From Undaria pinnatifida (lineage: Eukaryota > Sar > Phaeophyceae > Laminariales > Alariaceae): a DNA stretch of 64,000 nt. The translations under genes and the position numbers were made by a program. A model generated the notes under the pieces. The model was not told the DNA's origin. It searched no databases and saw only the letters and a list, made by a program, of their open reading frames with translations. Shown here piece after piece: positions 7,998-52,300 of the stretch; within the stretch, counting starts at the first letter, position 1, and each line of letters begins with the position of its first letter. Location of the stretch: contig JABAKD010000014.1 in assembly GCA_012845835.1 (NCBI GenBank), positions 6,793,396-6,857,395 on the forward strand. Direction: 5' to 3'.

Positions 7998-8342
7998 ATG
8001 CATAGCCCCAACGAGTTGGATGTGTGGGCCGTCATGAGGCAGCTGCAGGGCTTGCCGTTACCTCTCGGCCAAGTCCCTGTCTGGGATGGCGGGGAGCAGA
8101 GAGCGGGGGAGGAGTACGCCTCGGCTTGCGGGTTTCCAGCCGCGTTTGGCCCCCTCCTATTCCAACGCGCGACGAGGAAGGTCTTCGGCAAGGTGTTTGC
8201 AAGCGGGGTTAGCGTGCTTCCTGCGCAGCACACGGCCTACATGTTCGAAAAGTTTTGGGAGAAGGAGGTGGCGCCGTTTGATGCGACCGAGAGGTTTTTC
8301 AGGCTGGTGACGGAATCAGACTGCGGTGACGGCATTAGTAAG
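7998..8342 (+). CDS. B''-like gene exon 1
   Basis: 115 codons, donor GTGAGA at 8343. The blocks ACGFPAAFGPLLF and FWEKEVAPFDATERFF match the start of the B'' core (ACGCP...GPLF and MWRK...DDAxKF). An AG after GTAC at 7985-7986 in the same frame would allow an upstream exon, so the ATG at 7998 is a choice rather than proof. A decayed copy of its 3' half lies about 260 bases downstream. Confidence 0.65.
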
Positions 8343-49300: not shown

Positions 49301-52300
49301 GATTGCGAATACAATTGAGTCAAATGGACACACGACAAGTACGAAAACGCGAAATGTATGAAAATACTTGGAAGTGTGGCGAACCTAAAGCTTTACCTTT
49401 CCCTAAAGCTTTACCTTTCCCCGTCCACTGGAGGATTAAAAACAAAAAAGTACGTGTGCACACCGCCAAACTCCCGCACTTGAAAAAAAAAAACGATCAC
49501 GACCCACGAGCAATTGCACCCAAACGTCTGCAGCTTCCTGCTTTGCTGTTTGTGTGCAACATCAAAATTCAAACATAGTGGGAACTCAAAAGGATGGGGC
49601 AAGATCTAGAATTCAAACTAAAAAAATAAATAAGAACGCTAAGTACTCACGAGCCATTGCAGCCGCAAGCCTGAAGCTCCCCATCCGCCGTAACGACAAG
49701 AAGGTGCTCACAACCATTGCCGGAGTTGACCAGGGTGACGCGACCAGCGGGTCGAAAGCTGGGCTCTTCGAGAGACACCTGGGTACGAGGGTTTTCCGGC
49801 ATGTTTTTCGGACGGGAAGGCGAGCGTGCGGGGGGATAGGCGGGGGGGGGGGGGGGGGGCTCCAAACTCGTGCCAAGAAAAAATTGTGGTACTTTTATCT
49901 GGTACCAGGTACCAGGTATGATGTAAAACAATAGTCGAAAATCGCAGTGTGCCTTTTCTTTATCTGTAGGGTCTATTTAAAACAAATACCCGAAATACTT
50001 TTGCACGTTATCTGGTGTGTGTTGTGTACCACGACTGGTAAAGCGGCCTCGGCGAGCGGGGTGGTGGTGTGACGCTTTGCTTGAGTCTTAGGGGGGTGTA
50101 CTCGATATTCATGTATGGCCGTAATCGTATGACAACAGCTATTAGACCCTCGTATTCCTACATGCCGGGACGGAGCATGTCGAGTTTTCACCGACCAGGC
50201 AGACATTGCTTGCACCAAGCGCGGAGCCCAGTGACATGTTCGGCGAGTCGCATGAAGAGTGAGCTGTATCCTACTAAGACCGCTTGTTACTTGAGTCTTA
50301 GGGGGGAGAGGAATCCACACAAAAAAAAATGGGCGTAAAAACAGCTGGAGAGAGCGTTTTTCACGCGTCAAGAGGCGTGAACATGGAACACCAAAACAAA
50401 CACGAAGCTTGCGTCTTAAAATGAAAAAAATCATAGCTCGCTAAGAACATCGGGCTCGAGCCTCTTACTACCTAAACGTAGAACGGCTCTGGGCGTACAT
50501 GGACGTAAAACATAAAATATATTTTCGTATTTCATGCAGATAACCCAACGGTTCGAATACTTCCGCTCGCAGTTGTATATCAAAAGGCCCTTGAAACGGT
50601 GGTACAGGAGTGATAACTCGAAAACATTCTCCAAGAGGTTGTCGGTTTGCGCGTCGGAGAAATCGGAACGGTTGTGATCGTGTGCTCCCAGGTGCTAGTA
50701 CGTGCCAAGGGAAGGGGCCCGGAGATCAACGCTAGCCGGAGAGATTTGTCCAACCCAAAAATGAATACTTTGGTGGTCATATAGAACAACCGGATTTCCT
50801 TTATTTTTCGTTTTGTTCAATTCTTATTCATTGTCTAGCTTGCTTTTGTGTGCGTGCTTTTCGTACACGGTGAGTTGGCATTTTTCCATTTGCCATTCCT
50901 CGATTCGTTTGCGACCATTTTGTCTCAATGTTTCGTATGTGTCTCACAGTCTGTGGCCACATAATGCGTGTACCTGAGAGGACGAAGAATCAGGACGGGG
51001 TCTCTGGGTGGGCTGATATCGTTGGGTAGGTCGTACGGTGTAACGTTATCACAACTCACACACTAGCCTCCATAGCCAAATCAGAGATGAACACCTCCGA
51101 ACCTTCGAGAAGGAAGGCACCCTCTCCGGAACCACACCCTCGATTTCTCCTATCCCGCATTGTCCTTCGTCGTTGTTGCCGCAGGAGTACACCTTGTAGG
51201 GGGCAGTGGAGAGCGGGAGGGGGGTGAGAGGAGAGGGTTTGAGAGGGGAGAGGAGTGAAGACGGCGGCGGGGGGGGGGGGGGTGACGCTCTGATGGGCCA
51301 GGTTGGGCTGGAAGGCGTGCCGCGAGGAGGTAGGGGGGGGTGTAGCTGTCCAGGTGGGCTGGGCTGGGACGGGCTGGGCTGGGCGGGGTTGGAGATCCGT
51401 CTCGCAGATCGGAAGCTGAGACAGGGAATCGAACAGGAGCAACGTTGTTGCTGCGTACAAACTAAGACTCGTCATTCGGGTCGCATGCGTTTCGTGTTAT
51501 CTGAGCGAGCCTTCTGCTACTGATGACATTCAAAGCTGCTACTGCTGTTGCTACTGCTACTATTTCAATACTGCTACTATTTCAATACGTCAGCATTCCC
51601 ATTCCTCTATAACATCGTACCTTACACAAGTACTCCTGCTGCATTTTCTCCTGGTCTTGCTCCCAATCCTACTCTGCTATTTCATATCTGGTATTTTGCT
51701 ATAAATAACACAACCCTACAACCACCACCACTACCATTACTTCTACGGCTACTACGGCTGCTACTACTACTACTACTACTTCGAGTGTGTACTACTACCA
51801 CACCTGCTGTTGCCGCTACGGCTACTGTTCCAATTTAACGCGACAATAGCGCTATCACCACCACCACCACCACCACCACCAGTACCACCACCAACCACCA
51901 CCACCACCACCACCACCACCACCATCCACCACCAACCACCACCAACCACCACCACCCCCCCTGCTGCTGCTATTGCAGCAAGCGGTGGTGTCTTCTCGCT
52001 CACCTCCCCAGTGTTGGTAAGGATAGCGGTGTGTTCGTTACCAGCGGTAACCAACACGACGTCCTTGCCCAGGCAGAAATCAGAGCGTGTCGGCGTCCGT
52101 CGTTCTATCGTGTCGCCCAGCCCCAGTTCTCCCGCCGTGTTCTGGCCGAACTGCAGCGGCGACAGAGCGAGCAGGAACAAGAAGGCTGTGTGTGCAGCTA
52201 GTTTAGGATCAAGCATTGAGCCATGGCACGGTTGGGGATGCAGTTTGTTTAGCCAGAATACGTTTGAACGACTGGCCTCAACTGAGGAAGTAGCTGATAC

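Follow-up and report, generated by a model that had tools for sequence, protein, structure and literature searches.

The introns of two genes in the window, by which we mean the whole 64,000-nucleotide stretch of Undaria pinnatifida DNA analyzed here, contain decayed copies of the ends of their own exons. The copies are real and local, keep the orientation of the exon, are mostly one-ended, and lie on the predicted side of the exon, and the same pattern is seen in several unrelated genes. They very probably arose by chance local head-to-tail duplication, with selection keeping the exon and the spare unit decaying as intron. An earlier note on this DNA had ascribed them to local tandem duplication across exon-intron borders, one unit being kept as the exon. 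That reading is well supported by decoy comparisons, by orientation, and by the sides on which the copies lie; what the earlier note observed holds, and so does most of its interpretation.

In the mechanism that we propose, local head-to-tail duplications would arise anywhere in the genome, with spacings mostly of 50-800 bp within the 1-kb limit of our pair counts. A unit spanning an exon border would duplicate one exon end together with its splice site and adjoining intron. A duplicated 3' end would lack an acceptor and lie downstream of the intact exon, and a duplicated 5' end would lack a donor and lie upstream. Because the intact exon should still work in both cases, the duplication would be nearly neutral; we infer this neutrality, like the molecular cause of the duplications, from the sequence. 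Selection would keep the exon alone, and the extra unit would decay as intron, sometimes after more duplication into a short series. Units may also vanish between repeats.

Exon-end copies in two genes of the window

The gene with exons between 37986 and 49778 on the minus strand is an RCC1 gene, a name made firm by profile matches. The second gene is called B''-like on the basis of a single sub-threshold Pfam match (EF-hand_13, E 0.018). A PDB search with the exon-1 frame gave no match at E 0.1, and the sole genome match to PF17958 lies outside the window, so this name stays weak. Rfam searches at the gathering level and tRNA searches across the window found nothing.

Each reported exon end was aligned with its reported copy and compared with approximately 3,000 decoy windows on both strands, drawn from the window and 23 other loci and equal in length to the tested copy. 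The score in this test carries no charge for choosing the best place within an intron. A stricter yardstick is a score of 35.9, which marks the 99% level of decoys when two 2.5-kb flanks are searched under different, stricter masking. The exons and copies are listed below, with exon numbers following the earlier note and exon boundaries placed by eye; the number of decoys given is that of decoys scoring at least as high.

8265..8342, plus strand: 3' part of exon 1 of the B''-like gene (gene name weak), donor GT at 8343; read from sequence
8531..8625, plus strand: decayed downstream copy of the exon 1 3' end with donor region; 18/20 in the core, 0/2,980 decoys
13357..13447, plus strand: exon 3 of the B''-like gene
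14299..14374, plus strand: exon 3 3'-end copy 1, including intron flank but without the donor GT; 61/73, 0/2,972 decoys
14488..14519, plus strand: exon 3 3'-end copy 2; 28/32, 0/2,990 decoys
49651..49778, minus strand: exon 4 of the RCC1 gene
49502..49538, minus strand: exon 4 3'-end copy A, a narrow pass; 28/37, 0/2,989 decoys, best decoy 26 versus 29
49240..49274, minus strand: exon 4 3'-end copy B; 30/35, 0/2,989 decoys
46874..47056, minus strand: exon 6 of the RCC1 gene
46338..46402, minus strand: exon 6 3'-end copy with donor; 54/67, 0/2,980 decoys
46431..46490, minus strand: second exon 6 copy, weak, not significant alone; 14/2,990 decoys
43337..43447, minus strand: exon 9 of the RCC1 gene
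43150..43195, minus strand: exon 9 copy A, not significant alone; 15/2,987 decoys
42946..43037, minus strand: exon 9 copy B with approximately 80 bp of intron; 70/91, 0/2,983 decoys
42758..42812, minus strand: exon 9 copy C; 46/57, 0/2,985 decoys
37986..38111, minus strand: exon 13 of the RCC1 gene
38203..38321, minus strand: upstream copy of the 5' end and body of exon 13, a frameshift being seen by eye; 87/119, 0/2,975 decoys
45826..45918, minus strand: exon of the RCC1 gene whose 5' end is copied upstream
46116..46154, minus strand: newly found upstream copy of the acceptor and 5' end of the 45826..45918 exon; 33/39, in-frame stop by eye
43695..43840, minus strand: exon of the RCC1 gene whose 5' part is copied upstream
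44493..44591, minus strand: newly found upstream copy of the 5' part of the 43695..43840 exon; 75/102, in-frame stop by eye

All six exons for which near copies had been reported have at least one nearby copy, in the same orientation, that scores above some 3,000 decoys. Taken one by one, nine of the 11 reported copies outscore every decoy; the two that are not significant alone are the exon 6 copy at 46431 and the exon 9 copy at about 43165, whose flank is partly masked as simple repeat. Seven of the 11 exceed the flank-search level of 35.9. Below it are the two narrow passes of the decoy test, the exon 1 copy (30) and exon 4 copy A (29), exon 1 being the weakest of the six exons. In a separate alignment the exon 1 copy scores 33 over 8531-8606; in the decoy test its best decoy is close behind, and the remainder of its interval was added by eye. 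The earlier note placed this copy at 8486-8628; the match holds from about 8531, and 8486-8530 is mostly GGA-rich low-complexity DNA. The two copies absent from that note, at 46116-46154 (score 48) and 44493-44591 (score 67), are equalled or beaten by no decoy and pass the 35.9 level too. Both are upstream of their exon, and each bears its 5' end.

In the alignments, exon sequence was duplicated together with intron sequence, as in exon 3 with the start of its intron and in exon 9 copy B. The copies are as first described in being in the exon's orientation and often including the donor and flanking intron. The further statement that the donor or frame is damaged is half right: several copies are frameshifted or stopped, but by eye GT is retained at the aligned donor place in eight of the 10 donor-side copies. 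What sets the copies apart from exons is that they have one end and that several carry a frameshift or a stop.

Whether the copies are local or dispersed was examined by searching the assembly (511,146,479 bases in 68 contigs), scoring the best candidates and skipping very common words. Among the candidates scored, a query spanning exon 9 and its copies (42740-43450) matches only its own locus and an inverted paralogue of the window, the exon 6 copy matches only itself, exon 6 (E 8e-9), and the paralogue, and the exon 3 copies (14275-14530) match only themselves, exon 3 (E about 1e-8), and the paralogue. The exon 13 copy finds itself and the paralogue only, its divergence being too great to recover its own exon, and the exon 4 interval gives mostly dispersed repeat matches. 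The copies of exons 3, 6, and 9 thus lie close to their source, as expected for local tandem duplication, and are not dispersed in the genome as capture by a transposon would have them. That a mobile element took up exon pieces and reinserted them nearby is extremely improbable on this evidence and given that the copies keep their orientation and lie on the predicted side, although dispersed repeats are common within the window and one lies between both exon 4 copies.

This short dispersed repeat occupies approximately 49284-49394, between copies A and B (best 40 scored of 960 first-look candidates). The window also holds three copies, one inverted, of a repeat of about 380 bp (13872-14254, 18805-19184, and 25170-25556), with 83-bp direct repeats near its ends; it is perhaps a small non-autonomous LTR-like element. 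Five large simple arrays are present: TACCGTTAG x90 at 16692-17498, TTG x113 at 22271-22609, TAGA x206 at 39896-40721, AAGGGT x106 at 42001-42639, and ACA x102 at 54601-54906. Several of them sit between exons of both genes. A passage of the Undaria pinnatifida genome paper gives a repeat content of 54%, with 36% of the genome being repeats of unknown type (PMC7058681).

Local repeats at other genes and in random DNA

Fifty-one coding segments at 16 loci, one gene each, were chosen from profile matches to RCC1 and kinesin: 37 of the 68 listed RCC1 matches (window and L016-L028) and 14 of the 130 kinesin matches (L029-L032). For each segment, extended by 80 bp of flank, the 2.5 kb on both sides were searched at a threshold set to the 99% decoy level. 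With light masking and 306 decoys, a direct local match is found for 15 of the 51 segments and an inverted match for none. Stricter masking and a higher threshold leave nine segments with a direct match, again with 0/51 inverted. Removed from the 15 were the L017 match and one L020 match, which are simple repeats, and four matches, at L027, L028, L030, and L031, that score 31-35 and so fall under the higher threshold. Dispersed repeats disturb the decoys, one of which scored 58 in the stricter test. In that test the window is enriched, with three of its five HMM segments matched versus 6/46 elsewhere. The match overlaps coding sequence in seven of the nine matched segments (3/5 in the window and 4/46 elsewhere).

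Several of these loci repeat the pattern of the window. At the kinesin locus L030, the exon end, donor, and adjoining intron are repeated downstream, with 50 bp aligned and more visible by eye. At the kinesin locus L031, the 5' end of an exon is repeated upstream (54/56 identical), followed by a stop. At the RCC1 locus L016, on contig C29, an exon end is copied downstream, and in this copy a stop precedes the donor by eye. At L025, another RCC1 locus, one copy is stopped and copy B is open, both by eye; copy B could be a true RCC1 blade, and the same could hold for some other RCC1 matches, RCC1 blades being repeats. On C2, kinesin matches at 16034374-16037637 recur with the same scores 29 kb away, at 16063521-16066784, apparently through a recent duplication. 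The guess that the process is genome-wide is supported by the two kinesin loci and the other RCC1 loci, on other contigs, and, more weakly in the segment test given below, by the local direct repeats of six random 5-kb regions.

The general background of local repeats was quantified by counting pairs in which two similar segments lie within 1 kb of each other. In 238 kb, 217 pairs are direct and 10 inverted, where pairs are not independent events, since one array yields several. The direct and inverted counts are 48 and 3 in the window, 122 and 7 at RCC1 loci, 31 and 0 at kinesin loci, and 16 and 0 in random regions. An earlier version of the count gave 53 direct and 9 inverted pairs in 180 kb. 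Pair identity runs from approximately 67 to 95% (5th to 95th percentile), which is a spread of ages. Within the 1-kb limit, the spacing lies between about 50 and 830 bp, with a median of 213 bp. Direct local repeats cover 11.4% of the window, 8.1% of the RCC1 loci, 9.8% of the kinesin loci, and 5.7% of the random regions. The lengths of low-copy arrays form a spread that points to no clear mechanism. Markov shuffles of 180 kb contain zero local pairs, and 40 kb of E. coli K-12 contains one direct pair and zero inverted pairs.

Chance similarity in repetitive, skewed DNA is almost certainly not the explanation. It could apply to the two reported copies that are not significant alone, to the two narrow passes, and to the two matches elsewhere that proved to be simple repeats; for most copies it is contradicted by the decoy, inverted-strand, shuffle, and E. 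coli controls.

The stricter test was also applied to segments placed at random, most of them non-coding and some overlapping each other. Direct local matches are found for 88 of 426 and inverted matches for 25 of 426. By set, the direct matches number 23/120 in random regions, 19/156 at RCC1 loci, 20/60 at kinesin loci, and 26/90 in the window, with 8, 5, 1, and 11 inverted matches, respectively. Under light masking, direct versus inverted matches number 7 versus 5 of 60 (random), 16 versus 5 of 104 (RCC1), 13 versus 0 of 32 (kinesin), and 27 versus 10 of 70 (window). Gene regions thus give stronger evidence than the random regions do, the latter consisting of six 5-kb stretches.

Because random segments match locally about as often as coding segments (88/426 versus 9/51), the process does not appear to be aimed at exons, and exon-specific targeting was dropped as an interpretation. 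It is very unlikely that an RNA- or splicing-linked process acts on exon ends or splice donors rather than on random DNA. Donor-side matches outnumber acceptor-side matches 13 to 4 in the looser test (p 0.049), as such a process might produce, but the numbers become 7 versus 4 with stricter masking, or 4 versus 4 without matches that lie only in the flank, and the copies contain unspliced intron. We therefore claim no bias of donors over acceptors.

Sides, decay, and the inverted paralogue

Duplication by chance makes a prediction about sides that the 11 matches of the stricter test bear out. Every upstream match (4) is to the 5' side of its segment and every downstream match (7) to the 3' side (11/11, Fisher p 0.003). 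Three of the 11 lie wholly within the flank, where the side rule is expected regardless; without them, 8/8 obey (4 and 4; p approximately 0.03 by hand). The looser set keeps the rule in 17 of 20 matches and breaks it in three (p 0.014). The side rule is what chance duplication produces once every change that breaks the exon is lost; a special mechanism is unneeded. The earlier statement that copies lie mostly downstream of the true exon is best recast accordingly: 3'-end copies are downstream, but 5'-end copies are upstream.

Mismatches in copies that overlap coding sequence were sorted by codon position. In the stricter set, 15 of 87 bases at position 3 mismatch (17%) and 16 of 177 at positions 1 and 2 (9%; p 0.067), and in the looser set 17/96 and 16/192, respectively (p 0.029). 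In two long copies, of exon 13 and of exon 43840-43695, 28/71 bases mismatch at position 3 and 26/141 at positions 1 and 2; the copy of exon 43840-43695 also contributes to the other counts, and numbers are small. A ratio near 2:1 is what one constrained and one free partner should give, and two constrained partners should give a larger one.

These data bear on the possibility that selection maintains the copies as genuine alternative (mutually exclusive) exons, which is highly improbable. Most copies are one-ended and hence incomplete as exons, and inspection by eye shows stops or frameshifts in copies 46116, 44493, and 38203 and at loci L016 and L031. The codon-position ratio is below that for two constrained copies, with the small numbers noted above. 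What favors such exons is the GT kept in most donor-side copies and the open reading, by eye, of L025 copy B and of exon 9 copy C along its short length. The paralogue has a G before the donor GT of exon 9 copy C (42758-42812), a possible cryptic exon.

The chance duplication reading can be followed over time because the window (1-64000) is one arm of an inverted duplication. The other arm, C20:6567180-6629290, ends approximately 0.16 Mb away on the same scaffold. The arms are unevenly alike, with 93-96% identity over 0-18 kb and 42-46 kb but 97-99.8% over the rest, a mosaic suggestive of gene conversion or of haplotypes placed twice. Both arms contain the copies of exons 1, 6, 9, and 13 and the exon 4 interval, so these predate the inverted duplication or were spread by conversion. 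Differences between the arms include the following.

4948..5183, no strand assigned: tandem repeat of two units (period 124, 96%), where the paralogue has one
14316..14503, plus strand: 188 bp between the matching points of exon 3 copies 1 and 2, missing in the inverted paralogue
48549..48718, no strand assigned: 50-bp tandem array with one unit more than the paralogue

The arms differ by 29 internal indels of at least 15 bp, 15 of them of at least 50 bp. Dropping four that lie in arrays of 3-, 4-, and 9-base units leaves 11 indels of at least 50 bp, and a flanking copy covers at least half of the indel in seven of these. An eighth is the exon 3 case: the 188-bp difference at 14316 runs between the matching points of the two exon 3 copies, and the paralogue carries a fused copy. 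Since the exon 3 copies differ from each other more than the arms do, a loss in the paralogue is the simpler reading, and units are probably also lost between repeats. The presence or absence of whole units between window and paralogue is what tandem duplication would leave, in a comparison that is undirected as to gain or loss. The proposal that the process is enlarging these introns thus stands in part, in that some units occur in one arm only; the 188 bp missing in the paralogue points to likely loss too. We infer which differences are gains or losses, and likewise a net lengthening of introns.

Intron length and known systems

The average intron is given as 1,057 bp in Saccharina, a kelp, and 703 bp in Ectocarpus in a passage of PMC4421812, and local duplication may account for a share of the longer kelp introns, as far as that passage describes them. 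With nothing to anchor it, intron DNA decays, which usually makes its composition and its lengthening unreadable. Exon ends can serve as anchors: since selection holds the source constant, the decayed neighbors of an exon end are recognizable, countable, and in principle datable. Local copies were found for 9/51 segments with flanks, 7/51 with coding overlap, so the share of duplication in intron growth should be measurable against that of transposons, genome-wide. A broader idea, that chronically high local tandem duplication builds much of kelp intron length and also supplies the exon arrays of brown-algal LRR receptor-like genes, is doubtful. If it were true, exon-end copies would be a datable fossil record of chronic tandem duplication, readable genome-wide. 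Tandem duplication is a known mutation class, and what is new is how legible its record is in this kelp. Among the matches listed in the literature on brown-algal introns, there is no account of decayed exon-end copies.

Messer and Arndt reportedly found in 2007 that many new short insertions are copies of adjacent DNA. In contrast to those insertions, the kelp repeats mostly have larger spacing (the median of 213 bp) and the copies persist in decayed form.

Internal gene duplication is described as common, at times taking whole introns (Gao and Lynch 2009, as cited in PMC4974935). As far as that citation goes, the likeness is local duplication inside genes, whereas the kelp evidence consists of decayed, mostly one-ended copies within introns whose side was tested. 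In the Rogers model, as presented in passages on the potato RdRp gene (PMC4974935) and on Drosophila (PMC2891723), tandem duplication of exon-containing DNA makes one copy an intron, and the potato paper also describes an 83-bp tandem duplication within an intron. The kelp resembles these accounts in the tandem duplication of exon-containing DNA, with one copy becoming intron. It differs in that no new intron was seen forming; rather, existing introns appear to receive an extra unit. Within brown algae, the closest likeness is with the ROCO genes, for which an excerpt of PMC11378527 describes exon shuffling of LRR exons and tandem exon copies. Whole exons are kept and used there, according to that excerpt, whereas the kelp copies are mostly broken ends.
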